Origin: Pedobacter cryophilus
GTDB taxonomy: Bacteria > Bacteroidota > Bacteroidia > Sphingobacteriales > Sphingobacteriaceae
Reading direction: 5' to 3'
Length of the DNA: 64,000 nt
Assembly: GCF_005116455.1 (NCBI RefSeq)
Contig: NZ_SWBP01000008.1
Coordinates: forward strand, 1 to 64,000
A program made the position numbers and the translations under genes. The notes under the pieces were generated by a model that was not told the DNA's origin, did no database searches, and saw only the letters and a list, made by a program, of their open reading frames with translations. Shown one piece after another: positions 16,191-41,230 of the stretch (position 1 is its first letter; the number at the start of each line of letters is the position of its first letter).

Positions 16191-16398
16191 GGATAACCCT
16201 TGGGTTGTCCTTAAAAAAATAACAAAAACGGATAATCCGAGGATTATCCCTACGTAAAACCTTTTTTTTAACCACATGTAGGGATAACCCTCGGGTTATC
16301 CTAATGTAATATCCAAAACAAAAACGGATAATCCGAGGATTATCCCTACGTAAAACCATTTTTTTTAACCATATGTAGGGATAACCCTCGGGTTATCC
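16185..16398. repeat. REP/BIME-like hairpin pairs downstream of RAYT
   Basis: A single hairpin (GGGATAACCCTTGGGTTGTCC, 16190-16210) overlaps the end of the transposase gene. Two complete paired units follow (16230-16301, 16326-16398), almost identical to those upstream. The 16191-16499 stretch contains these repeats and the promoter of the Hsp70 gene, with no other gene seen. Confidence 0.85.
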
Positions 16399-16475
16399 TA
16401 TTTAAGTTATCCTCAAATTAAAAACCATTTCCTAACCAATGACATTTTATTAACATTGCATCTCGTAAAACTGAT

Positions 16476-27108: not shown

Positions 27109-27935
27109 AACCACAGAGGACACAAAGATTTTTCATCTCCATTTCGGTTATAACCACAGAGAACGCAAAGATTTTTTTCACAAAGTACACAGAGCTGGGT
27201 TTATCAAAAATCAATCTCCTTTTTTTCTCTGTAAACTCCGTGGTTCAATTATTTTTTTCACAACAGAAGACACAAAGTACACAGAGCTGGGTTTATCAAA
27301 TATCAATCTCCTTTTTTTCTCTGTGAACTCCGTGGTTTAATTTTTTTTAACCACAGAGGACGCAAAGTTCACAGAGCTGGGTTTATCAAATATCAATCTC
27401 TTTTTTTTCTCTGTGAACTCTGCGAACTCCGTGGTTCAATTATTTTTTTCACAACAGAGGACACAAAGTACACAGAGCTAGGTTTATTAAATATCAATCT
27501 CTTTTTTTTCTCTGTGAACTCCCCGTGGTTAATTATTTTTTTTTTACCACAGAGGACACAAAGTTCACAGAGCTGGGTTTATCAAAAATCAATCTCTTTT
27601 TTTCTCTGTAAACTCCGTGGTTCAATTATTTTTTTCACAACAGAAGACACAAAGTACACAGAGCTGGGTTTATCAAATATCAATCCCTTTTTTCTCTGTG
27701 ATCTCCCCGATCTCCGTGGTTCAATTATTTTTTTTACCACAGAGGGCACAAAGTTCACAGAGCTGGGTTTATCAAATATCAATCTCTTTTTTTTCTCTGT
27801 GAACTCTGCGAACTCCGTGGTTAATTATTTTTTTTTTAACCACAGAGGACACAAAGCTGGGTTTATTAAATATCAATCTCCTTTTTTCTCTGTGATCTCC
27901 GTGGTTAAATTTCTCTGTGAACTTTGTGGTTAAAA
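27109..27935. repeat. Tandem CACAGAG repeat array, about 9 units of 90-105 bp
   Basis: The unit starts ACCACAGAGGACACAAAG, continues TTCACAGAGCTGGGTTTATC, AAATATCAATCTC and a T-run, and ends TCTCTGTGAACTCCGTGGTT. Its two ends are inverted copies, so each unit can fold. Units begin near 27109 (short), 27153, 27258, 27350, 27447, 27545, 27637, 27734 and 27839. Segments near 27194 and 27572 are nearly identical, so a block of about 380 bp (four units) has itself been duplicated. Long open frames across the array have no coding meaning. The whole 27049-27951 gap holds only this array. Confidence 0.9.
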
Positions 27936-30503: not shown

Positions 30504-32108
30504 ATGAAAAAACATTTAATGCGCACAATATGTGTTTCAATAGCTTTTATTACGTTGTTTGCAACTAATTCTTGTAGAAAAGACATTCAAAATTCTGAAA
30601 TTACAGTTCAACCTAAAACATTAGATTTAATAGCTGAGGCTAAACTTTATTTTAACAACAGTATAAAAGAGGTCTCAAGAGAAAAAGATTTAAATAGCAG
30701 CAATGATAAAAACCAATTTCAATTATTAAATAAAAAGGTACTTTGGGATGATGCTAAAGTTAAAAAAATGGCTTCTGGAGAGGCCGTTAGAGTTCCAATA
30801 TATTATGATGAAGAAACCTTCATAAAAGCAGGAAAAGACAAAAGAGCAATGTCTTTATATAACCTCAGCTACCTCATGATGTATAAAGACAAAAAGGGCA
30901 AGATGCAAATGGAATGGGTAATTACCATACCTGATGATGATTATGTTGATAGAAAGAGAAATAGTGGAGTAAAATTTACGGGGATTATCCATGTTTTAGA
31001 TTGGAAGGGAAACCTAATAAAATCATATAGATACTTTAAAGACGAGAGCGTTTCTATGGGTACTAAAATGACTTTTACTAAAGAAAATAATTTAAAAGTT
31101 GCCAGTAATAAACAACCCATAAAACAATATGATTACTGGGCACAAGGTTGTGTCTCCAATACTTATTGGACTTGCGTTTCTATTACAAGCACAGGCAATG
31201 AATATTGTGGTAACTTTTATTCTGTAGAAACTTGTTACAATATTTATGTTATTGAGCCTAAAGGAAAAGAAATACCAATTTCTGAAGGCGGAGGTGGCGG
31301 AGGTCCATATGATTATATACCAGATGAGAATGATTGCCCTGTTAGTGGAAACCCTGAAAACCCAGGTGATCAGCCTCCTACAGATAGGAATAGTCCAATG
31401 TCTACATCTAGTAGTAATTGTGATGGCACCATTAATAGAGACACTATAAATAACTTAAACAATGCAGATGCTGACTGTATTTTTGAAAGACTAAAAAACA
31501 ATGTTTTATTTCAAAATTTGTTAGCAAATTTCCAAAACAATAAAAACTTGAATATTACATTTCAAATGGGTAATCCTGTAGATGAGAACGGAAATTCTGT
31601 AAATGGGTCAACTAGCCATGTTTTAGGTACAACCAATTTTACGATTACAATAGACAATAATTATTTAAATCTTCGCGGAGGAATTGAAGTTGCCAAAACT
31701 TTTCTACATGAGGCATTTCATGCTAATTTATATACACAAGCACAACTATGGTATCCATCAGACCTACCAACAAACTTTCAAAACTGGAGTTTGGTAGATC
31801 AAATTAAATATATAGACAATAGGAGTGGTCATATCGCTGGTTTTTCCAATTCTCATCAGCATAATTATATTGCTACTCAAATTGATCAAATTGCGAATGG
31901 GATAAGGGCATATACTCTTGCCAATTATCCCACAATTTATAGCAATCCAAACGCTACTTTTGATTCTTATAGGGCTATGGCTTATGGTGGTTTAACAGGT
32001 ACACAGTGTTATGCTACTTACATTAAAAACTTGCCTAATGGGCAAACTAGTTTTGATAATGCTTATAGAGAATTAATTTCTAAAATTGGTGAAAATAAAT
32101 GTCCATAA
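30504..32108 (+). CDS. Lipoprotein with C-terminal HExxH metallopeptidase-like domain
   Basis: This 534-aa protein has a lipoprotein signal (TLFATNSC, lipid Cys24), an N-terminal region (about 35-250) with a cysteine-rich part (CVSNTYWTC, YCGNFYSVETCYN), a low-complexity linker EGGGGGGPYDYIPDEND (about 261-300), and a C-terminal domain. That domain contains AKTFLHEAFHANLY (H402, E403, H406), an HExxH zinc-peptidase motif, then HQHNYIATQIDQIA (H451/H453), a likely third ligand region. Its C-terminal third is partly duplicated downstream. The N-terminal/linker/C-terminal layout is like surface-delivered effectors, but peptidase activity and target are unproven. Confidence 0.72.
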   Translation: MKKHLMRTICVSIAFITLFATNSCRKDIQNSEITVQPKTLDLIAEAKLYFNNSIKEVSREKDLNSSNDKNQFQLLNKKVLWDDAKVKKMASGEAVRVPIYYDEETFIKAGKDKRAMSLYNLSYLMMYKDKKGKMQMEWVITIPDDDYVDRKRNSGVKFTGIIHVLDWKGNLIKSYRYFKDESVSMGTKMTFTKENNLKVASNKQPIKQYDYWAQGCVSNTYWTCVSITSTGNEYCGNFYSVETCYNIYVIEPKGKEIPISEGGGGGGPYDYIPDENDCPVSGNPENPGDQPPTDRNSPMSTSSSNCDGTINRDTINNLNNADADCIFERLKNNVLFQNLLANFQNNKNLNITFQMGNPVDENGNSVNGSTSHVLGTTNFTITIDNNYLNLRGGIEVAKTFLHEAFHANLYTQAQLWYPSDLPTNFQNWSLVDQIKYIDNRSGHIAGFSNSHQHNYIATQIDQIANGIRAYTLANYPTIYSNPNATFDSYRAMAYGGLTGTQCYATYIKNLPNGQTSFDNAYRELISKIGENKCP

Positions 32109-32110
32109 AT

Positions 32111-32524
32111 ATGAAAAATGCATTTCTGTTAATCACATTATTATTTTCAAGTATAATTTCATCAGCTCAAATTGAAGTTAGAGAATCTATATACATAAGA
32201 GTAGACAAACTTGAACCAAATCAGATTAGTTTTCACATTTCGAACGGTAAAATTTTAGGCTTAAACATATACATAAAAAATAAATATGAGAGTCAAACTG
32301 GTTTTGCTACAGGTTATTTTGACTCAAATTTAACATTAAACCAAAAGCACAAGTTAGACCCAAGCAAAGTGATAACTTATGATCAATTTGTAGAACTTAT
32401 TAATAAGGATATTTTAAATGTTCACTATTATTACAGAATTTATTTTATTATTTCTGAGGCAAAGTATGATTATTTAACCATACAGGTAAGGCAAATTATG
32501 CCTCCTGAGTTTAATCAAGAATAA
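32111..32524 (+). CDS. Small exported protein, partner of the HExxH lipoprotein
   Basis: This 137-aa protein has a Sec signal (MKNAFLLITLLFSSIISSAQ) and a beta-rich mature part. I chose ATG 32111, three bases after the upstream stop, because the signal peptide begins there; an ATG at 32099 would overlap the upstream gene by 10 bp. Landmarks are ESIYIRVDKL, FHISNGKILGLNIYIKN, ITYDQFVELINK and IYFIISEAKYDYLTIQVR. It is a clear paralogue of the protein at 32843. No known family is recognised. Tight linkage to the metallopeptidase suggests it binds or controls it, possibly as a periplasmic inhibitor. Confidence 0.65.
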   Translation: MKNAFLLITLLFSSIISSAQIEVRESIYIRVDKLEPNQISFHISNGKILGLNIYIKNKYESQTGFATGYFDSNLTLNQKHKLDPSKVITYDQFVELINKDILNVHYYYRIYFIISEAKYDYLTIQVRQIMPPEFNQE

Positions 32525-32549
32525 AACTTAAATTTTTACTATCAAAAAT

Positions 32550-32846
32550 ATGAGTTTAGTTGACCAAATTAAATATCTTGATAGTCGCGGTGGTAATGAA
32601 ATTTTACAACATACCTATATGTCTAATAACATTAATATTATTGCAAATGGCTTGAGAGATTATGTACAAGCTAATTACCCTGATATTTATAATAATCCAA
32701 ATAATACTCAAGAGGCATATATTGATTTGTGTATACAAGGTTTACAAGGAACCAAAGTGTTTAATCATTACGAAAACAATCTTCCAATTGGAACCCCAAT
32801 TGGAACATTATCCTCAGGCTTAGTAACTTCAATCAAATGTCCATGA
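32550..32846 (+). CDS. Truncated duplicate of the metallopeptidase C-terminus
   Basis: This 98-aa open frame begins MSLVDQIKYLDSRGGNE and aligns to residues from S429 to the end of the 534-aa protein (WSLVDQIKYIDNRSG; both end KCP). It lacks the HExxH helix, so it cannot be an active peptidase, and it has no signal peptide. The frame is open throughout, which suggests either a recent truncation or selection to keep it. DNA upstream (TATCAAAAATATGAGTTTAG) still resembles the parental TTTCAAAACTGGAGTTTGG, so the start ATG arose where the parent has TGG. Confidence 0.6.
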   Translation: MSLVDQIKYLDSRGGNEILQHTYMSNNINIIANGLRDYVQANYPDIYNNPNNTQEAYIDLCIQGLQGTKVFNHYENNLPIGTPIGTLSSGLVTSIKCP

Positions 32847-33259
32847 AAACATTAACTCTAATATTTTTATATATTATTTTAATTTCTATTAAAGTTCAAG
32901 CGCAAGAAACTTCTGGTACCTTTAATAATATTTTCTATGTGAGAATTGATACATTGCCATCGGCTTTAAAAAACTTTAAAATTGAAGATGGGAAAATCAC
33001 ATTTATTGGTATTTTAATAAATAAAGATAGTCTTGGAAGTGGCGGCTTTCATACCATGTATAATAACGCTAATTTATTAGGTTTTAATAAAGAAAACATT
33101 AATCCTCATGATATTATAAGTTATAATCAACTTTATAAAAAACTTGCAAAAAACGCTTATAATATCATTATGTTTTGTAAAATCTATTTTATAATTGGGG
33201 AAGATAGATTTAAATATATGGCCATTCAAGTAAGACCTGTTGGGTATTTGCAAGAATAA
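32843..33259 (+). CDS. Small exported protein, second paralogue
   Basis: This 138-aa protein has a Sec signal (MKTLTLIFLYIILISIKVQA, then QE). ATG 32843 overlaps the TGA of the preceding frame (ATGA), implying coupling. It follows the layout of the protein at 32111: FYVRIDTL, FKIEDGKITFIGILINK, ISYNQLYKKLAK and IYFIIGEDRFKYMAIQVR. The two differ at more than half of positions by eye, so the duplication is old or the proteins diverge quickly. That would fit binding partners that change specificity. Confidence 0.65.
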   Translation: MKTLTLIFLYIILISIKVQAQETSGTFNNIFYVRIDTLPSALKNFKIEDGKITFIGILINKDSLGSGGFHTMYNNANLLGFNKENINPHDIISYNQLYKKLAKNAYNIIMFCKIYFIIGEDRFKYMAIQVRPVGYLQE

Positions 33260-33278
33260 AATTTACTTTTCTATTTAG

Positions 33279-33380
33279 ATTTCAGCTCAATCGTGGTATC
33301 CAAATAGTTTACCCTCTAATTTTCAAATCAAGAGGTTTAGTAAATCAAATAAGAGGAAATGATTTTATCCGGATTTATGT
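33279..33380 (+). pseudogene. Decayed remnant of the metallopeptidase C-terminal region
   Basis: The bases here read QSWYPNSLPSNFQ, matching QLWYPSDLPTNFQ (residues 414-426) of the 534-aa lipoprotein. A frameshift follows, after which GLVNQI in another frame matches SLVDQI. No start codon or continuous frame remains. It is a third copy of the same region, located directly after the second small exported gene. Confidence 0.6.
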
Positions 33381-33381
33381 A

Positions 33382-33526
33382 AAAGTAAATAATCCCGCTA
33401 GCCAAAACTAACGGGATTTTCTTTTACTTGCTCATTTCGGCAAAATATTTATGAAATAACGGAATGGTTTCTATCCCTTTATAATAATTAAATACATCGT
33501 ATTTTTCGTTTGGTGAGTGCATGTTA
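33382..33526 (-). pseudogene. Duplicated 3' end and terminator of the M20 dipeptidase gene
   Basis: The last roughly 30 codons of the dipeptidase gene (minus-strand reading NEKYDVFNYYKGIETIPLF, ending FAEMSK) plus its terminator are repeated here. They are nearly identical to 34515-34658, with about eight differences over some 130 aligned bases by eye. Similarity stops abruptly near 33526. The two copies are direct repeats flanking the two small genes at 33612 and 34039. The rest of the 33260-33611 gap contains the peptidase remnant and no other gene. Confidence 0.8.
33391..33418. terminator. Terminator hairpin (duplicate copy)
   Basis: AATCCCGCTAG (33391-33401) can pair with CTAACGGGATT (33408-33418), followed by T-rich sequence. 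It is a copy of the hairpin at 34523-34550 and would stop transcripts from the cassette genes upstream. Confidence 0.7.
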
Positions 33527-33611
33527 CAAATTAATCATAACTTTCATGAGACTTCGGCATATATTCAATTAACAAGTTCACAGAAAACAAAAATTAATAT
33601 TGACCTTTCAA

Positions 33612-34028
33612 ATGAGTTTCAAAAGACAAATAAGAATTATAATTAGCTTTTCCCTATTATTATTCAGTTGCAAAAACAAGGTTGAGGTTAATATTCCCTT
33701 TAACTTTCACCAAAATGGCAGCTCAAACATTGATTTCAAAATAGATACAATTTCTAAAAAGAAAGTGTATAATATTTACCTATCAAAAGCTTATTTCATT
33801 TCAATGAAAGAAAAATTGATTGGCTTTACAAAAGAAATTCATGAAAAACCTTATATAAATTACAATCTTATTAGAAAAGCTATTAACATACCCAAAACTG
33901 AAGAAATTAATGCAAATTATAGCTTTTATGCAGTAGTTCAAGTTAATGAATCGACGTTTAAAAAAATACCGATTAAGCTATCTGGGTTTACTATGATAGA
34001 TTTTGAATATCCTATTAAAGAAAACTAA
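33612..34028 (+). CDS. Small lipoprotein of unknown function
   Basis: This 138-aa protein has a lipoprotein signal (MSFKRQIRIIISFSLLLFSC), starting at the second ATG of the frame (an ATG at 33600 is possible). The mature part is beta-rich. Its order of features (IDFKIDTISKKKVYNIYL, then INYNLIRKAIN, then YSFYAVVQVNESTFKKIPI) loosely recalls the two small exported proteins upstream, so it may be a distant third member. I give that low weight. It lies between the direct repeats of the dipeptidase 3' end. Confidence 0.6.
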   Translation: MSFKRQIRIIISFSLLLFSCKNKVEVNIPFNFHQNGSSNIDFKIDTISKKKVYNIYLSKAYFISMKEKLIGFTKEIHEKPYINYNLIRKAINIPKTEEINANYSFYAVVQVNESTFKKIPIKLSGFTMIDFEYPIKEN

Positions 34029-34038
34029 AAAGAAACCT

Positions 34039-34509
34039 ATGTTCTTACGATTCACATTAATTGCTATGTTAATAAATTTACTAGGTTACAATAATTTGTA
34101 TGGTCAAGAAAAAAGAGACATTTCGAAGTTTATCATGCAAAACTTTAAAGTGCCAGCAGAAAAGCTTAATAATTGCAAGTGGAATTATTTAGTGTTAGAA
34201 ACAACACTTGATAAGACTAATAAATTAAATTATAAAGTTTTATCCTCAACTGACACATTTTTAATAAAGAATATAAGCTTTTTAAATTCATTCAAAGTAA
34301 ATGAAATTAATGTAAAATCATTTCCCGCACTTATTATAATATCTATTCAAGATAATGTCGGTTTATGCGATAACGAATACGCTAAAATTCCAGCACCATC
34401 AGATGTGTTGCAGCAAATTTTGCCATTAATATCGCAATCAGTTAAAGATTATCCTAAAATACGAATATTAGAACCCATAATTGCTAATATTGAAGCATCA
34501 AGACAATAG
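34039..34509 (+). CDS. Small exported protein of unknown function
   Basis: This 156-aa protein begins MFLRFTLIAMLINLLGYNNL and has a likely cleavage after YGQ. The ATG at 34003 would place 12 lysine-rich residues before the signal peptide and overlap the upstream gene, so 34039 is preferred, 10 bp after the upstream stop. The mature part has alternating hydrophobic strands (FPALIIISIQDN) and one cysteine pair (NNCKW, GLCDNE). No family is recognised. It ends 13 bp before the terminator shared with the convergent dipeptidase gene. Confidence 0.6.
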   Translation: MFLRFTLIAMLINLLGYNNLYGQEKRDISKFIMQNFKVPAEKLNNCKWNYLVLETTLDKTNKLNYKVLSSTDTFLIKNISFLNSFKVNEINVKSFPALIIISIQDNVGLCDNEYAKIPAPSDVLQQILPLISQSVKDYPKIRILEPIIANIEASRQ

Positions 34510-34555: not shown

Positions 34556-35926
34556 TTACTTACTCATTTCGGCAAAATATTTATGAAATAATGGAATGGT
34601 TTCTATCCCTTTATAATAGTTAAATACATCGTATTTTTCGTTTGGCGAGTGCAGGTTATCGCTATCTAATCCAAAACCCATTAACACGGTTTTAATTCCT
34701 AATTCCTGCTCAAATAAAGCTACAATTGGAATACTTCCACCGCCTCTTGTTGGTACAGGCTGTTTGCCAAAAGCTTCTTCAATGGCTTTGTAAGCTGCTT
34801 TAAAAGCTAAAGAATCTGTCGGGGTAACATAAGGCGTTCCTCCATGATGAGCCACCACACTCACTTTAACAGATTTTGGTGCAATGCTTTCGAAATGGTT
34901 TTTAAAAAGCTCTGAAATGGCTTTCCAATCCTGCCCTGGCACTAAACGCATAGAAATTTTAGCATTGGCTTTTGCTGGCAAAACAGTTTTAGCTCCGGGG
35001 CCAGTATAACCGCCCCAAATTCCGTTGACTTCTAAAGTTGGTCTAATTCCGGTTCTTTCTATGGTAGAATAGCCTTTTTCGCCCCAAACTTCATCAACAG
35101 AAAGGTCTTTTTTATAATCGTCTAAATTAAAAGGAGCATCATTTAAAGCTTTTCTTTCTTCGGCAGATAATTCAATTACGCCATCGTAAAAACCAGGAAT
35201 GGTGATATGGTTATTTTCATCATGCAAGGAAGCAATCATTTGGCAAAGAATAGTTGCCGGATTGGCTACTGCACCGCCGTAAACGCCAGAGTGTAAATCG
35301 CGGTTCGGACCTTGTACTTCTACTTCCATGTAAGCTAAACCACGTAAACCGGTTTCTAAAGATGGATTTTCCATACTAATCATAGAAGTATCAGAAATCA
35401 AAACTACATCGGCTTTTAATCTTTCTTTATTGGCTGTTACAAATTTTCCTAGATTATCTGAACCTACTTCTTCTTCTCCTTCTATCATAAATTTGATATT
35501 GCAAGGCAAAGTGTTGGTATTCATCATCAATTCAAATGCTTTTACATGCATATAAAACTGGCCTTTATCATCACAAGCGCCACGGGCATAAATTTTACCG
35601 TCACGTAAAGTGGGTTCAAATGGTGGCGTATGCCATAATTCTAATGGATCTGGTGGTTGTACGTCGTAATGACCGTAAACCAAAACGGTAGGTAAACTGG
35701 AATCTATAATTTTTTCTCCGTAAACTATCGGATAGCCTTCAGTAGCGCAAACTTCAACGTTTTCGGCTCCGGCTTCTTTTAATTTCTCGGCAACAAAATC
35801 TGCTGTTTTGAGTACCTCTCCTTTATATTTAGGATCGGCACTAACAGACGGAAATCTTAATAATTCAAATAATTCGTCTAAGAACCTTTTACGATTCTCT
35901 TCTACATAATTCTTAATTGTTTGCAT
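34556..35926 (-). CDS. M20-family dipeptidase
   Basis: This 456-aa zinc peptidase of the M20/carnosinase-like group has metal-site motifs VYGHYDVQPPD, GACDDKGQFYMH and MIEGEEEVGSDN (catalytic Glu and metal Glu). Later come ISDTSM and, near the end, DSDNLHSPNEKYD with the final metal histidine. A dimerisation lid domain lies in the middle (GPNRDLHSGVYGG). It would hydrolyse dipeptides in the cytoplasm; no signal peptide is seen. The 3' end of the gene is duplicated 1.1 kb away. Confidence 0.9.
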   Translation of the reverse strand: MQTIKNYVEENRKRFLDELFELLRFPSVSADPKYKGEVLKTADFVAEKLKEAGAENVEVCATEGYPIVYGEKIIDSSLPTVLVYGHYDVQPPDPLELWHTPPFEPTLRDGKIYARGACDDKGQFYMHVKAFELMMNTNTLPCNIKFMIEGEEEVGSDNLGKFVTANKERLKADVVLISDTSMISMENPSLETGLRGLAYMEVEVQGPNRDLHSGVYGGAVANPATILCQMIASLHDENNHITIPGFYDGVIELSAEERKALNDAPFNLDDYKKDLSVDEVWGEKGYSTIERTGIRPTLEVNGIWGGYTGPGAKTVLPAKANAKISMRLVPGQDWKAISELFKNHFESIAPKSVKVSVVAHHGGTPYVTPTDSLAFKAAYKAIEEAFGKQPVPTRGGGSIPIVALFEQELGIKTVLMGFGLDSDNLHSPNEKYDVFNYYKGIETIPLFHKYFAEMSK

Positions 35927-36023: not shown

Positions 36024-36182
36024 TTAATCCCAAGTAGCTAATTCGGCATTTCTTGGCGTATCTACAGTTTTTTGTGTAGGAAGCTGCTTAGCTTGTTCTT
36101 GATCTGTATTTGATTTGTTAATAGTTGCAGCAGCAGCTACGGCTGAAATTACAACGAATACTATAATTAATAACTTTTTCAT
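36024..36182 (-). CDS. 52-aa exported peptide, relative of the tandem lipoproteins
   Basis: This small gene encodes MKKLLIIVFVVISAVAAAAT, then a polar Q/K-rich part, ending AELATWD. It shares the MKKLLI start and the terminal TWD with the six tandem lipoproteins but has no lipobox cysteine, so it would be secreted or membrane-held by its signal segment. It is the last gene of the minus-strand series and has the same inter-gene leader type. Function unknown. Confidence 0.62.
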   Translation of the reverse strand: MKKLLIIVFVVISAVAAAATINKSNTDQEQAKQLPTQKTVDTPRNAELATWD

Positions 36183-36209: not shown

Positions 36210-36347
36210 TTAATCCCAGGTACCTAAATTACCTTTGTCACTTACTTTTACTGCTGTAGGTTTTGTTGGGGCTACTTCACTTTCTTTTTTGCAAGACGTT
36301 GCGCCTACTGCTGATACTAATAATATTGCGATCAATAACTTTTTCAT
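36210..36347 (-). CDS. 45-aa tandem lipoprotein, copy 1
   Basis: The encoded protein is MKKLLIAILLVSAVGATSCK, then KESEVAPTKPTAVKVSDKGN and LGTWD. The lipobox VGATSC predicts cleavage to a lipidated mature peptide of about 27 residues. It is one of six copies repeated at 166 bp with 28-bp spacers. The whole gene differs from its neighbours at only a few bases, and differences are concentrated in the PTKP(T/S)(A/S) part. No known family recognised. Confidence 0.72.
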   Translation of the reverse strand: MKKLLIAILLVSAVGATSCKKESEVAPTKPTAVKVSDKGNLGTWD

Positions 36348-36375
36348 GTTTATTTTCTATTTATATGTGGCTTAA

Positions 36376-36513
36376 TTAATCCCAAGTACCTAAATTACCT
36401 TTGTCACTTACTTTTACTGATGTAGATTTTGTTGGGGCTACTTCACTTTCTTTTTTGCAAGACGTTGCGCCCACTGCTGATACTAATAATATTGCGATCA
36501 ATAACTTTTTCAT
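36376..36513 (-). CDS. 45-aa tandem lipoprotein, copy 2
   Basis: This copy has the same length and signal as copy 1. The variable part reads APTKSTSVKVSDKG, the only copy with Ser after TK. It ends LGTWD. The frame is intact. Confidence 0.72.
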   Translation of the reverse strand: MKKLLIAILLVSAVGATSCKKESEVAPTKSTSVKVSDKGNLGTWD

Positions 36514-36541
36514 GTTGTTTTTATATTTATATGTGGCTTAA

Positions 36542-36679
36542 TTAATCCCAGGTACCTAAATTACCTTTGTCACTTACTTTTACTGATGTAGGCTTAGTTG
36601 GTGCTACTTCACTTTCTTTTTTGCAAGACGTTGCGCCCACTGCTGATACTAATAATATTGCGATCAATAACTTTTTCAT
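36542..36679 (-). CDS. 45-aa tandem lipoprotein, copy 3
   Basis: This copy has the same length and signal. The variable part reads APTKPTSVKVSDKG. The DNA differs from copy 2 mostly at codons for this part. The frame is intact. Confidence 0.72.
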   Translation of the reverse strand: MKKLLIAILLVSAVGATSCKKESEVAPTKPTSVKVSDKGNLGTWD

Positions 36680-36707
36680 GTTGTTTTTATATTTATATGT
36701 GGCTTAA

Positions 36708-36845
36708 TTAATCCCAGGTACCTAAATTACCTTTGTCACTTACTTTTACTGCTGTAGGTTTTGTTGGGGCTACTTCACTTTCTTTTTTGCAAGACGTTGC
36801 GCCTACTGCTGATACTAATAATATTGCGATCAATAACTTTTTCAT
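36708..36845 (-). CDS. 45-aa tandem lipoprotein, copy 4
   Basis: The protein is identical to copy 1 in the variable part (APTKPTAVKVSDKG). This suggests that copies have been exchanged or duplicated recently in blocks. The frame is intact. Confidence 0.72.
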   Translation of the reverse strand: MKKLLIAILLVSAVGATSCKKESEVAPTKPTAVKVSDKGNLGTWD

Positions 36846-36873
36846 GTTTATTTTCTATTTATATGTGGCTTAA

Positions 36874-37011
36874 TTAATCCCAGGTACCTAAATTACCTTT
36901 GTCACTTACTTTTACTGATGTAGGCTTAGTTGGGGCTACTTCACTTTCTTTTTTGCAAGACGTTGCGCCTACTGCTGATACTAATAATATTGCGATCAAT
37001 AACTTTTTCAT
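36874..37011 (-). CDS. 45-aa tandem lipoprotein, copy 5
   Basis: The variable part reads APTKPTSVKVSDKG, as in copy 3, although the alanine codon differs. The frame is intact and the C-terminus is LGTWD. Confidence 0.72.
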   Translation of the reverse strand: MKKLLIAILLVSAVGATSCKKESEVAPTKPTSVKVSDKGNLGTWD

Positions 37012-37039
37012 GTTTGTTTTCTATTTATATGTGGCTTAA

Positions 37040-37177
37040 TTAATCCCAAGTACCTAAATTACCTTTGTCGTTTACTTTTACTGATGTAGGCTTAGTTGGT
37101 GCTACTTCACTTTCTTTTTTGCAAGACGTTGCGCCTACTGCTGATACTAATAATATTGCGATCAATAACTTTTTCAT
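37040..37177 (-). CDS. 45-aa tandem lipoprotein, copy 6 (promoter-proximal)
   Basis: This is the first gene of the array in transcription order. The variable part reads APTKPTSVKVNDKG; Asn replaces Ser as compared with the other copies. It lies 41 bp after a good -7 promoter element at 37219-37226, which probably drives all six copies and the 52-aa gene. Confidence 0.74.
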   Translation of the reverse strand: MKKLLIAILLVSAVGATSCKKESEVAPTKPTSVKVNDKGNLGTWD

Positions 37178-37218: not shown

Positions 37219-37251
37219 CAAACATAGCTTCATTATTGTTTCTAAAGAAAC
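37219..37251 (-). promoter_or_regulatory. Promoter with 14-bp palindrome for the tandem lipoprotein array
   Basis: On the minus strand TATGTTTG (37226-37219) is a perfect -7 element. Eleven bases upstream is GTTTCTTTAGAAAC (37251-37238), with perfect 6-bp arms, where the -33 element would be expected. The palindrome could be an operator replacing or overlapping the -33 element. Confidence 0.5.
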
Positions 37252-37392: not shown

Positions 37393-38844
37393 ATGAAGTA
37401 TTATCTACTGCTTTTTTTTTGTCTTAATCTTGGAAGGTTATTCGCTTATCAAACAGACAACTCTTTGTTGGGACTTAAAAGTGATACAAACACAGTAAAT
37501 GAACTAAATAAACTAGGATATAACAATAGATTAACAGACCCAGAGCAAACCATAATTACTGCTAAAAAAGCAATAAAGATAGCTGCCGATATTAATTATA
37601 ATAATGGTTTAGCCGAATCGAATAGGGTTTTAGGAATTGGTTATTATTATTTAAATCAGAGAGATACAGCTTTAAATTATTATTTAACAGCTTTAAATCT
37701 TTTCAAAAAAAACGCCAACCAACTGGGCGAAGCAAAAGTATCTAACAACATTGGAAATCTTTGGTTAGATATTGATTATGACAAAGCTTTAAATTACTTT
37801 GAAAACACTTTAAAAATTGCTCAAAAATACAATATCAAAGAATTAATTGCAGGTTCATACTTAAATATAGGGAACACTTTTTCCAGAAAAAAAAATTACA
37901 ACTTTGCCCTATCCAATTATGAAAAAAGCAGTCAAATCTTTAATGAGATTAATAACCCAGTAGGCATCACTCAAAGTTTACAAAACAGAGGGGTAATTTA
38001 TTTTAGTTTGAATCAATTTAATGAAGCTGAGAAGCTTTTATTAGAAGCAAACAAAAAAGCTAAAGAATTTGAACTGAATGGAAGTGTGGCGTCCATTAAC
38101 TTAACATTAACTTCTATTTACATTGCAAGAGGGGCTTTTGATAAAGCCGAAGAATTTTTAAAAGAAGGTGTTGCATTTTCTAAATTGGTGAATGATGAAA
38201 AAAGATTGTATGATTATACTTTCACCTCTTACGAACTAGAATTTAAAAGAAAAAATTACCAAAAAGCAATTTCATACTTAAAAGAAGTACATGAGCAAGA
38301 CAGCGTTAATTTTAAAAGAAACATTGCTTCAAACATTAACCTTATTCAAGAAACTTTAAAGCAACAACAGCAACAAAAAGAAAATGAATTAACCATAGCA
38401 AATCAACGAAATGCAAATACACTTTTTATTGCAAGCGCTATTGTTGCAATATTATCTTTCTTTGTTATTTTCTTGTTAATCAGAATCAACAAGAAATCAA
38501 GCGAGAGTAATAAAGCACTTACCTCACTAAATCAAGAGGTTTCTTTTCAAAAAGACAATGTGGATAGAATTAATCAGAAACTAGAAGAAATTATTACCGA
38601 AAGAACTAAAGATTTGATTTATAAAAATCAAAAACTTTCAGAATACTCCTCTCATCTTTCTCATCAAATACGTGGTCCAGTTGCTACTTTAAAAGGATTA
38701 GTGATGTTGATTTTAGGAAATATGGTAGAAAGTAAAGATGTAATTCCTCAAATTAAAAAATGTGTAGACGAAATTGATGATCAAATTATGGACATTAACC
38801 AAGCCTTGCATGACCCTACCCGACTGCATTTACATTCTAAATAA
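37393..38844 (+). CDS. TPR membrane protein with H-box but no ATPase domain
   Basis: This 483-aa protein has a signal peptide (MKYYLLLFFCLNLGRLFAYQ) and periplasmic tetratricopeptide repeats (about 35-300, several with A-x-x-Y/N-Y-x-x-A patterns). One transmembrane helix (about 343-364) and a cytoplasmic coiled coil (about 370-415) follow, then SSHLSHQIRGPVATLKGL, which matches the histidine-kinase H-box with H424. It stops about 60 residues later, without any N, G1 or G2 ATPase boxes. Many Bacteroidota TPR kinases have this layout plus an ATPase domain. The next 38 bases hold a terminator, so no split gene is evident. It is divergent from the tandem lipoprotein genes and could sense or regulate them, which is only inference. 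Confidence 0.78.
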   Translation: MKYYLLLFFCLNLGRLFAYQTDNSLLGLKSDTNTVNELNKLGYNNRLTDPEQTIITAKKAIKIAADINYNNGLAESNRVLGIGYYYLNQRDTALNYYLTALNLFKKNANQLGEAKVSNNIGNLWLDIDYDKALNYFENTLKIAQKYNIKELIAGSYLNIGNTFSRKKNYNFALSNYEKSSQIFNEINNPVGITQSLQNRGVIYFSLNQFNEAEKLLLEANKKAKEFELNGSVASINLTLTSIYIARGAFDKAEEFLKEGVAFSKLVNDEKRLYDYTFTSYELEFKRKNYQKAISYLKEVHEQDSVNFKRNIASNINLIQETLKQQQQQKENELTIANQRNANTLFIASAIVAILSFFVIFLLIRINKKSSESNKALTSLNQEVSFQKDNVDRINQKLEEIITERTKDLIYKNQKLSEYSSHLSHQIRGPVATLKGLVMLILGNMVESKDVIPQIKKCVDEIDDQIMDINQALHDPTRLHLHSK

Positions 38845-38926: not shown

Positions 38927-41230
38927 TTGGATTATTTACAAGGATTAAATCAATCACAAAAAGACGCAGTGGTACAAACTGAGGGTCCGGTGATGATTGT
39001 GGCAGGAGCAGGATCTGGTAAAACCAGAGTAATTACCTACAGGGTAGCACATTTAATTCAGAAAGGTGTTGATCCATTCAATATTTTGGTGCTTACGTTT
39101 ACCAATAAAGCGGCCAAAGAAATGCGAAACCGTATTACAACGGTGGTTGGCCCCGAAGCTAAAAACATTTGGATGGGTACTTTCCACTCTGTTTTTGCAA
39201 AGATCTTAAGAGTAGAAGCTCATAAAATTGGATACCCAAATAATTTTACCATTTACGATACCGATGATAGTAAAAGCCTCCTTAAATCTATCTTAAAAGA
39301 AATGAGTTTAGATGATAAGCTTTATCATCACAACTATGTTTACGGCCGAATTTCGATGGCTAAAAACAACTTGATTTCTGTAACAGAATATCAGCAAAAT
39401 GAACAAATCCAAGCTGATGATTTTGCAAGTGGCAGAGGTTTTATTGGAAAAATTTACGAAACCTATGCTAATCGTTGTTTTAAAGCAGGCGCTATGGATT
39501 TTGACGATCTTTTGTTTAAAACCAACGTTTTATTAAAAGAACATCCAGATGCGCTCAACAAATACCAACAAAAGTTTAAATATTTAATGGTAGATGAGTA
39601 CCAGGATACTAACTTCTCTCAGTACTTAATTGTAAAAAAATTAGCTGCCGTAAGAGAAAATTTATGTGTGGTTGGTGATGATGCGCAAAGTATTTATGCT
39701 TTTAGAGGGGCTAATATTCAAAACATCCTCAACTTTCAAAAAGATTATCCTGATGTTAAAGTTTACAAACTAGAGCAAAACTATCGTTCTACGCAAAACA
39801 TTGTAAATGTGGCCAACAGCATTATTGCAAACAATAAAAATCAGTTAGATAAAAACGTTTTCTCTGATAACGAGGAAGGGGATAAAATAAAAATAACCCG
39901 TTCTTTTTCTGATAATGAAGAAGGAAAAGTAGTAGCCGAATCTATTACCCAAGAAAGAGGAAATAATAACTTAAACTGGGTTGACTTTGCTATTTTATAT
40001 AGAACAAATGCGCAATCCAGATCAATGGAAGAAGCATTAAGAAAACTTAACGTTCCTTATAAGATTTACGGTGGTCAGTCTTTTTACCAAAGAAAAGAGA
40101 TTAAAGATTTAATAGCTTATTTCCGCTTAACTTTTAACCCCAGTGATGAAGAAGCCTTTAAAAGAGTGATCAATTATCCGGCTAGAGGTATAGGGAAAAC
40201 AACTATTGATAAAATGATTTTAGCGGCAGACCAAGCTAATAAAACCCTTTTTGATATTGCTTGTGAAGCCAATCAGCATTTAGATAATAGAGCCGCAACC
40301 GCTGTTGGGAATTTTTCTATAGCGATACAAAGTTTTGCTGTGGTTGCCAAAACCAGTTCTGCTTATGATGCGGCTTTAAATATTGCCCAACAATCTGGCT
40401 TATTAAAAGACCTATATGATGATAAATCTGTAGAAGGCTTAAGCCGATATGAAAATATGCAGGAATTGCTAAACGGCATTAAAGAGTTTTCTGAAAGGGA
40501 GGACATTGAAGACCGTGGCTTGGATGTTTTTATGCAAGACGTTGCTTTATTAACTAACGATGATAATGACAAAGGAGACAATAAAGACACCGTTTCTTTA
40601 ATGACCATTCATGCATCTAAAGGCTTAGAATTTCCTCAGGTTTATATTGTGGGATTAGAAGAGAATTTATTTCCGTCGCAAATGGCCTTAAACTCCAGAG
40701 CTGATTTAGAAGAAGAACGTAGATTATTTTATGTGGCCGTTACCCGGGCAGAAAAGAAACTTCATTTGAGCTATGCTACTTCTCGTTTCAGATTTGGAAC
40801 ATTGGTTAATTGCGAACCTTCTCGTTTTTTAGATGAGATAGAACCTAAATATTTAGAAATTGAATTTGTTAAAAAACAGCAAAACAATAGTCAATCTTTT
40901 GGGGATGAGCGCAGCCAATGGCAAAGTAAAACCAGTAAAACAGAAGCTCAACAAGGCGATTTTTTCTCTAAACCTAAAGTTGCAACAAGCAATCCTATCA
41001 AAACTACTTCACTTTTAGCAAAGGCTCACGTACCGTCAGCAGGTTTTGCACCTAGCGATACTTCAAAATTACAAGTTGGGCAAGATGTAGAGCATGAACG
41101 TTTTGGATTTGGAAAAGTAATTAGCTTAGAAGGAAATAAACCAGATATTAAAGCCACCATATTTTTTAAAGAAATTGGGCAGAAACAGTTATTACTAAAG
41201 TTTGCGAAGCTGAGGATTTTAGAGAATTAA
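38927..41230 (+). CDS. UvrD/PcrA-type DNA helicase
   Basis: This 767-aa superfamily 1A 3'-5' helicase acts in DNA repair and replication. Motifs: LNQSQKDAV (Q motif), VAGAGSGKTR (Walker A), TFTNKAAKEM, VDEYQDTN (motif II), GDDAQSIYAFRGA (III), LEQNYRS (IV), TIHASKGLEFPQVYI (V), FYVAVTRAEKKL (VI). The C-terminus has the PcrA/UvrD tudor-like module VGQDVEHERFGFGKVI. The start codon is TTG at 38927; the conserved beginning DYLQGLNQSQ is reached immediately and no ATG fits. Confidence 0.93.
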   Translation: MDYLQGLNQSQKDAVVQTEGPVMIVAGAGSGKTRVITYRVAHLIQKGVDPFNILVLTFTNKAAKEMRNRITTVVGPEAKNIWMGTFHSVFAKILRVEAHKIGYPNNFTIYDTDDSKSLLKSILKEMSLDDKLYHHNYVYGRISMAKNNLISVTEYQQNEQIQADDFASGRGFIGKIYETYANRCFKAGAMDFDDLLFKTNVLLKEHPDALNKYQQKFKYLMVDEYQDTNFSQYLIVKKLAAVRENLCVVGDDAQSIYAFRGANIQNILNFQKDYPDVKVYKLEQNYRSTQNIVNVANSIIANNKNQLDKNVFSDNEEGDKIKITRSFSDNEEGKVVAESITQERGNNNLNWVDFAILYRTNAQSRSMEEALRKLNVPYKIYGGQSFYQRKEIKDLIAYFRLTFNPSDEEAFKRVINYPARGIGKTTIDKMILAADQANKTLFDIACEANQHLDNRAATAVGNFSIAIQSFAVVAKTSSAYDAALNIAQQSGLLKDLYDDKSVEGLSRYENMQELLNGIKEFSEREDIEDRGLDVFMQDVALLTNDDNDKGDNKDTVSLMTIHASKGLEFPQVYIVGLEENLFPSQMALNSRADLEEERRLFYVAVTRAEKKLHLSYATSRFRFGTLVNCEPSRFLDEIEPKYLEIEFVKKQQNNSQSFGDERSQWQSKTSKTEAQQGDFFSKPKVATSNPIKTTSLLAKAHVPSAGFAPSDTSKLQVGQDVEHERFGFGKVISLEGNKPDIKATIFFKEIGQKQLLLKFAKLRILEN

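Follow-up and report, generated by a model that had tools for sequence, protein, structure and literature searches.

A conserved Sphingobacteriaceae locus of short, multi-copy peptide precursors beside a TPR-HisKA protein: a candidate peptide-receptor pair

Why should a bacterium keep, side by side, six nearly identical genes of only 45 codons? The question is raised by a 64,000-nucleotide stretch of Pedobacter cryophilus DNA (contig NZ_SWBP01000008.1, positions 1 to 64,000; called the window below), in which an initial annotation, made from the letters alone, had noticed the genes. It proposed that the array gives a high dosage of a tiny lipidated peptide, serves as a variable surface or signalling set, or acts as a pool for gene conversion. 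These proposals are examined here against the window, the 301 sampled genomes of the family, and a class-wide sample.

The array and its neighbors in the window

The six minus-strand frames are intact, as had been reported, each comprising 138 bp plus a 28-bp spacer in an exact 166-bp period (Table 1). Tandem Repeats Finder describes the repeat as 6.1 copies of period 166 with a 96% match, no indels, and a score of 1838. Any two units differ at 5–11 of their 166 bases, so the array is not one copy multiplied by the assembler, and a collapsed-assembly artefact is ruled out for the window. The frames differ by five silent changes (codon positions 42, 78, 84, 87, and 129) and three amino-acid changes (P/S, S/A, and N/S), all of the latter in the linker; the GNLGTWD end is unchanged. 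Antisense frames of 37–46 aa on the plus strand were rejected as genes; the silent-site pattern fits the minus frame. One array copy, used as a query against the whole genome, retrieves the six copies at E ≤6.5e-23, with no further match below E 0.01. The two 45-aa proteins scanned have no Pfam match at E 1, and their NCBIfam matches are all sub-threshold and include the signal region.

Table 1. Features of the locus in the window
Feature	Positions	Strand	Description
M20 dipeptidase, flanking	34556..35926	-	Marker of the conserved locus; no role claimed in the mechanism
Precursor gene 7, divergent	36024..36182	-	52 aa, hydrophobic signal without lipobox Cys, ends ELATWD
Precursor gene 6	36210..36347	-	45 aa
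Precursor gene 5	36376..36513	-	45 aa
Precursor gene 4	36542..36679	-	45 aa
Precursor gene 3	36708..36845	-	45 aa
Precursor gene 2	36874..37011	-	45 aa
Precursor gene 1	37040..37177	-	45 aa, lipoprotein signal, end KGNLGTWD
Promoter-like TATGTTTG (TAnnTTTG)	37219..37226	-	42 bp before the first ATG of the array
Candidate receptor	37393..38844	+	483 aa; signal segment, about seven TPRs, membrane helix, long helix, HisKA-like domain, no HATPase
UvrD/PcrA helicase, flanking	38927..41230	+	Marker of the conserved locus

The array is part of a larger conserved locus that includes a seventh precursor gene and a divergently oriented gene for a TPR protein with a HisKA-like domain, both overlooked by the initial annotation. 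The seventh gene is matched at E 1.08 with the one-copy query and at 3e-22 with an alignment that includes the seventh gene itself; a last gene without a lipobox is also found at many orthologous loci. The TPR gene, the candidate receptor, lies 215 bp upstream of the array.

The promoter-like element preceding the array has the form TAnnTTTG, which we take to be the Bacteroidota promoter core; in the window it has no TTG at the -33 spacing. At 60 of 103 loci TAnnTTTG is found in the 300 bp preceding the array, against about 20 in a Markov null (highest of 100: 30), and at 32 it is accompanied by TTG at the -33 spacing, against 2.7 in the null. No excess is seen on the receptor side (16, against 25 in the null), and none of 320 inter-gene spacers of the arrays contains the element. 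Its presence upstream of the arrays and absence from the spacers indicate that the array is most likely one transcription unit.

Genes identified between 29.5 and 46 kb of the window encode GH25, M20, TPR, and UvrD proteins, DUF4290, an EPSP-synthase family protein, DUF547, an oxidoreductase, and unnamed small secreted proteins; no known maturase is found among the genes scanned in this interval. In positions 30504–34509 a lipoprotein-like protein of 534 aa that contains HEAFH, an HExxH-like motif, precedes several look-alike small secreted proteins of about 140 aa; three proteins tested from this region have no Pfam match. Also repeated in the window are a unit of about 99 bp, in about 7.8 direct copies (27179–27912), and a 96-bp unit in nearly two copies (16221–16400).

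A locus conserved across the family

Other genera of the family also contain tandem, full-length matches to a profile of the seven precursor proteins. Ordinary lipoprotein signals match the profile of the first alignment too: 137 of 301 genomes match it, many over residues 1–30 or so only, and these were left uncounted. Twenty tandem-match loci were examined, and 19 contain the TPR gene. The order M20, TPR, UvrD is constant in these 19 (M20 is seen in 18; one contig stops short), with UvrD inverted in five (L042, L043, and L045–L047), and these three genes are the neighbors common to the 19 larger loci tested.

A search with the TPR protein gives matches in 121 of the 301 family genomes at E 1e-30; orthologues of the TPR-HisKA protein are present in 118, once G092, G104, and G148, which have a longer paralogue only, are excluded. 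The class-wide sample yields the receptor at E 1e-30 in 3 of 198 genomes, the window's included, all from the same family. We analyzed 114 loci, one per genome and with the window among them, of which 100 have enough upstream sequence; these are termed complete: the sequence read extends to M20 at 83 loci and covers at least 4.3 kb upstream at the other 17, where M20 lies farther away and additional genes may exist. The locus counts leave out L055 (no TPR gene on the contig), L148 (tandem TPR genes in G209), L154–L158 (paralogues), and G079 and G085 (partial genes). Arrays break the assemblies of relatives: 14 of the 114 loci are without a complete upstream region, G075 is split at the array position (contigs C107 and C76), and runs of unknown letters occur in L065, L100, and L114. 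One frame-disrupted precursor copy was seen among the relatives (L093).

At least one secreted precursor is present at 99 of the 100 complete loci (82 of the 83 where M20 was reached), the sole exception being L153, and an Asp-ended core could be assigned at 93; since the loci were chosen via the receptor, the first figure states how often receptors have precursors. The reverse linkage rests on 38 multi-core genomes and six gaps in TPR-negative genomes. A multi-core precursor query matches 38 of the 301 genomes, all of them in genus g15 and all with the receptor. The TPR-negative controls are 14 genomes chosen by hand, not at random, among about 180; M20 is present in 14 of 14 and UvrD in 13 of 14 at the cut-off used, and in six of the 14 both lie within 6 kb in the same arrangement. 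The gap between them is only about 140 and 175 bp in G010 and G022, no TPR gene is found in the other four gaps (L159–L162), and the precursor filter (ATG, GTG, and TTG starts) gives one match over all six gaps, in L162, without a core. Receptor and precursors are thus absent together there. An SGNH-hydrolase-like secreted protein, named by eye, lies in or near the M20-TPR or M20-UvrD gap in L153, L159, L160, and L162. L148 has two tandem TPR-HisKA genes and no precursors in the stretch read, with a third such gene on another contig.

High copy number is reached at the same locus by two routes, tandem small genes or in-frame repeats. Complete loci carry 0–11 precursor genes (median 3) and up to 44 cores found by regular expression (median 7), a few of which are probably spurious (e.g., in L147 and L149, and TTKAD in L071). 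Precursors of genus g15 are often multi-core in frame, with five copies of NKKDVGTAD in L068, eight cores in one frame of L085, and six copies of DKNNLGTAD in L118. Seven seemingly empty loci each hold one long secreted polyprotein. Polyproteins carry up to about 37 repeats, as in 11 copies of DKRTVGTGDLN (L088), 37 TGTGD-ended repeats (L087), and 13 copies of DKKSTGSADLS (L111), and at ten other loci small genes are accompanied by a further eleven polyprotein frames. On the receptor tree (FastTree), the polyprotein architecture changed at least six times. Within the window's own genus the number of precursors per locus is 7 in the window, 3, 3, and 3 in the next loci, and 1 in the rest of those analyzed, suggesting a local expansion behind the six-fold array. 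The suggestion of a high dosage of a tiny peptide is therefore supported, tandem genes or in-frame repeats raising copy number family-wide.

A lipobox is found in six of the seven window products and in 184 precursors at 91 loci; many precursors of genus g15 have none. The cysteine is followed as C-X-K-[DE] in 148 of the 184, with a second acid not always present. This resembles the optimal surface export signal of Capnocytophaga, reported as C-X-K-(D/E)2-X, with KKEVEEE in MucG (PMC5080379), and by this analogy display of the lipidated precursors on the cell surface is plausible.

Selection on an eight-residue core

Precursors were chosen by start, size, and hydrophobic signal alone, before any motif was considered, and 321 of 413 end exactly in Asp. 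In the gaps of complete loci an Asp end is seen in 301 of 392 frames on the precursor strand, in 0 of 8 on the opposite strand, and in 4 of 13 in reversed sequence, the last two being small controls. The final residues form a core with the consensus K-[KR]-D-[LIV]-G-[TSQ]-[AWGY]-D, represented in the window by KGNLGTWD.

Paralogues within a locus were compared in 257 pairs from 43 loci, the members of each pair being equally long and at least 75% identical in DNA. Their pN/pS falls from 0.257 (signal) through 0.125 (linker) to 0.008 (core), the core having 24 amino-acid differences against 741 silent ones; the test preceded the addition of the last polyproteins. DNA homogenization is not the cause of this constancy, because pS is no lower in the core (0.25) than in the signal region (0.17). 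The in-frame repeats, compared in 2063 pairs from 150 frames, give a ratio of 0.158, with pN smaller than pS at 45 of 46 loci. The core is the unit under selection. The same figures bear on the remaining early proposals: gene conversion as the function of the array finds no support, core silent sites diverging at least as much as those of the signal region, and a variable set is not supported either, the core being nearly invariant within a locus and varying between species. The signalling half of that proposal is supported by the conserved, sensor-like TPR neighbor.

Between species the core is diverse, with 75 distinct octamers at 99 loci. In this set seven of the representative cores were chosen manually (L060, L062, L064, L069, L075, L076, and L099), six loci were dropped (L127, L137, L139, L141, L142, and L145), and the final Asp is fixed by the manner in which cores were picked. 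Over the receptor tree, at least 62 changes fall in the last five core residues and at least 17 at residue -2. Some precursors depart from the pattern: the single precursors of L127, L137, L139, and L141, all in the window's genus, end in YEE, YDE, or YGE instead of Asp, and L145 has a GG end. Lipoprotein precursors with CxxC at or just before the core (e.g., CRGCGDWD) occur at six loci of genus g21 (L060, L062, L064, L069, L076, and L099), mostly with a tail after the core and alongside one precursor that has an ordinary signal and an SWD or NWD end; they are perhaps a disulfide-closed variant.

The last, non-lipobox gene agrees with the modal core of the other genes at its own locus at 127 of 196 residues over 49 loci; permuting partners within genus gives 92 expected, and 0 of 2000 permutations reach 127. 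Because some last genes are close copies of their neighbors, the comparison was repeated with those less than 60% identical outside the core, giving 67 of 124 residues at 31 loci against 52 expected (0 of 2000). Below 50% identity the within-locus matching is gone (12 loci, 19 of 48 against 17, 294 of 2000), and residue -2 alone carries no signal in this test (1002 of 2000). Permutation within genus leaves the subclade structure of g15 in place (39 of the 49 loci); the matching could reflect a recognition partner shared within each genome or ancestry shared within subclades.

Specific co-evolution of the core with the TPR half of the receptor was also considered and could not be separated from shared ancestry. 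Over 80 loci, the partial rank correlation of core distance with receptor distance is 0.22 for the TPR half and 0.25 for the HisKA half when mismatches are counted, and 0.30 and 0.28, respectively, with BLOSUM. The equality of the two halves argues against a strong claim of co-evolution; shared ancestry alone suffices.

Many in-frame cores are without a free C-terminus, so that either they are processed or a free end is dispensable. Even if a signalling reading fails, these results show a locus under strong selection for copies of an eight-residue peptide, in two architectures.

A candidate receptor and comparison with known systems

The TPRs of the window protein are recognized by Pfam (TPR_12, 1.5e-26), and a structure model built from 91 orthologues has a pLDDT of 89.3. 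By hydropathy all 113 of 113 orthologues have a membrane helix following the TPRs, and 97 of 113 begin with a hydrophobic segment; in the window protein the helix lies near residues 342–365 and the segment preceding the TPRs spans about 30 residues. Peptide-binding TPR proteins matching the model at Z 20–27 include APPBP2 with a C-terminal degron, LGN, and kinesin light chain as well as the quorum-sensing receptors RapF, RapJ, a phage Rap, and NprR, and the best matches include peptide-bound Rap receptors and NprR (Z 22–25); the TPR part resembles such proteins by sequence, too. These matches show fold, not function, because TPR superhelices match one another widely. Residue R78 is present in 91 of 91 sequences, and N119, N158, and N198 in 89, 89, and 84 of the 91. 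By our own reading of the TPR register R78 faces the groove side, and we guess that it could pair by charge with the core's constant Asp. The peptide backbone is reported to be held by a conserved Asn in RRNPP receptors (PMC6458997), and the anchoring Asn of Rap3T is given as N226 (PMC11343458).

The HisKA match is sub-threshold (E 8.5e-5; 23.0 bits against a cut-off of 26.9), and its histidine, H424, is invariant in 91 aligned rows. HATPase_c has no match in the window protein, and the orthologues end after HisKA: 112 of 113 are 473–518 aa long and one is 458 aa, none long enough for a kinase ATPase domain, and the UvrD frame begins about 80 bp downstream of the gene. A partner would therefore be needed; none supplying the missing kinase ATPase was found. 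The window protein matches no HTH family, its domains being TPR and the sub-threshold HisKA. Three g21 genomes (L155–L157) encode on another contig a second protein, akin in its TPR part, whose end is a different kinase-like module with NPHFVFN and a possible ATPase part; no array is present in the stretches read.

We regard it as probable that the array encodes multi-copy prepropeptides of one short exported peptide signal and that the adjacent TPR protein is its receptor. A single promoter would drive the whole run of precursor genes, and six of the products would be exported by a lipoprotein signal and the seventh by an ordinary signal peptide; the lipidated products would probably reach the outer surface. 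The selected product, a C-terminal core about eight residues long with a final Asp (KGNLGTWD in the window), would be either presented on its lipid anchor or released by a putative protease, and the number of precursor copies would raise the peptide dose. The TPR superhelix, predicted to lie outside the inner membrane, may bind the core within its groove; from the cytoplasmic side, the HisKA-like domain may relay the change to a putative partner with the missing kinase part.

The anchored peptides might instead be ligands that report the state of the envelope or their own export to the TPR protein, with no signal passing between cells. A tethered ligand and a periplasmic sensor suit such self-monitoring, the lipobox of six of the seven window products and of 184 precursors at 91 loci is consistent with it, and genomic linkage is blind to the difference between signalling to self and to a neighbor. 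We consider this unlikely in view of the changes counted in the last five core residues (at least 62), which are more than an internal gauge seems to need, the likeness of C-X-K-[DE] in 148 of the 184 lipobox precursors to the Capnocytophaga surface signal (PMC5080379), and the many g15 precursors that have no lipobox. It is very unlikely that the peptides are structural or ion-binding surface repeats and the TPR protein a neighbor without direct contact; charged Lys/Asp repeats could bind ions or matrix, and the lipobox with its surface-signal-like residues would agree with this, but the presence of precursors at 99 of 100 receptor loci, their joint absence from the six TPR-negative gaps, and a core frozen within a genome and changed between species would all be left unexplained.

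Less probable again are RiPP or bacteriocin-like precursors, for which the TPR protein would provide regulation or immunity. RiPP precursors, too, can be multi-core, the g21 subclade has CxxC at or before its core, and the array proteins score weakly (20.4 and 21.1 bits) in NCBIfam against a chryseobasin-related MNIO peptide. These scores are, however, half of the cut-off of 40, over residues 2–35, mostly signal region; no known maturase is encoded among the window genes scanned (29.5–46 kb), and the neighbors shared by the 19 larger loci are M20, TPR, and UvrD. Ordinary tandem duplication of a small lipoprotein gene with no special function is scarcely credible, for although such duplication is common and copy number varies within the genus (7; 3, 3, 3, and then 1 in the rest), neither a core pN/pS of 0.008, by which the silent sites already disfavor it, nor the re-creation of high copy number by in-frame repeats is expected of neutral duplicates.

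If the reading as peptide signal and receptor holds, the very small genes of 118 of 301 sampled family genomes conceal a peptide language, of which about 75 candidate words can be read, together with matched receptors. The TPR sensors of Bacteroidota, whose inputs are, to our knowledge, mostly unknown, would gain a class of ligand, and the pair would be an undescribed kind of bacterial peptide signalling. More tentatively, and at somewhat less than even chance, the locus may represent a peptide-pheromone system of Bacteroidota independent of RRNPPA, in which a species-specific octapeptide, shown at the cell surface by multi-core precursors that are free or lipid-anchored, acts outside the cytoplasm on an exported TPR receptor with an incomplete kinase, sender-receiver specificity is paired at one locus, and copy number is tuned by arrays or polyproteins.

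Peptide quorum sensing with TPR receptors has been described in Gram-positive bacteria. Among the matches listed from open-licence PubMed Central papers, none describes such a peptide-receptor pair in Bacteroidota. On the precursor side, PG1828-family lipoproteins and chryseobasin-related peptides (NCBIfam NF050142 and NF050125) share the short, lipoprotein-like signal region of Bacteroidota; the PG1828-family scores (19.9–23.3 bits against a cut-off of 50) lie, like the chryseobasin-related scores given above, well below threshold, and the matches stop at residue 42 or earlier, leaving the core end uncovered. Three long polyproteins have no NCBIfam match at E 1. Fungal alpha-factor-like precursors are reported to be likewise secreted and made of identical short repeats split by spacers (PMC6339444); they differ in domain of life and in receptor, and no protease site is established in the bacterial precursors here. 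On the receptor side, the FimS-type TPR sensor kinases of Bacteroidota have the same order of TPR, membrane helix, and HisKA and give the best NCBIfam hit, but its 78.6 bits are far below the cut-off of 600 and the window protein is without a HATPase domain.

The closest parallel is the Rap-Phr type of RRNPPA system. Both combine a small gene for an exported propeptide (export being read here from the hydrophobic N-terminus) with an adjoining gene for a TPR protein of 250–500 aa, an adjacency that is among the RRNPP detection criteria of a survey (PMC10075063). Both have a TPR superhelix, a short peptide (5–10 aa when mature in RRNPPA), and conserved Asn residues on the TPR helices, those here being candidates for the backbone-holding role. 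Up to 8 tandem pheromone copies per Phr propeptide are reported (PMC11343458); here multiplication is achieved mainly through gene arrays or polyproteins of up to about 37 repeats. The RRNPPA receptor is cytoplasmic, whereas the TPR part of the Sphingobacteriaceae protein is placed outside the cytoplasm by hydropathy (signal segment in 97 of 113, membrane helix in 113 of 113); the RRNPPA output is an HTH domain or the Rap helical bundle, here replaced by a HisKA-like domain; and the present locus belongs to Gram-negative Bacteroidota, with precursors that are often lipoproteins. The RRNPP_detector survey was applied to Firmicutes and viruses (PMC10075063), and so could not have seen the Bacteroidota locus. 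With a membrane-bound candidate receptor whose TPRs are predicted to lie outside the cytoplasm and which is without HTH or Rap domains, the locus would work like a tandem Phr/Rap pair but is not a member of RRNPPA.
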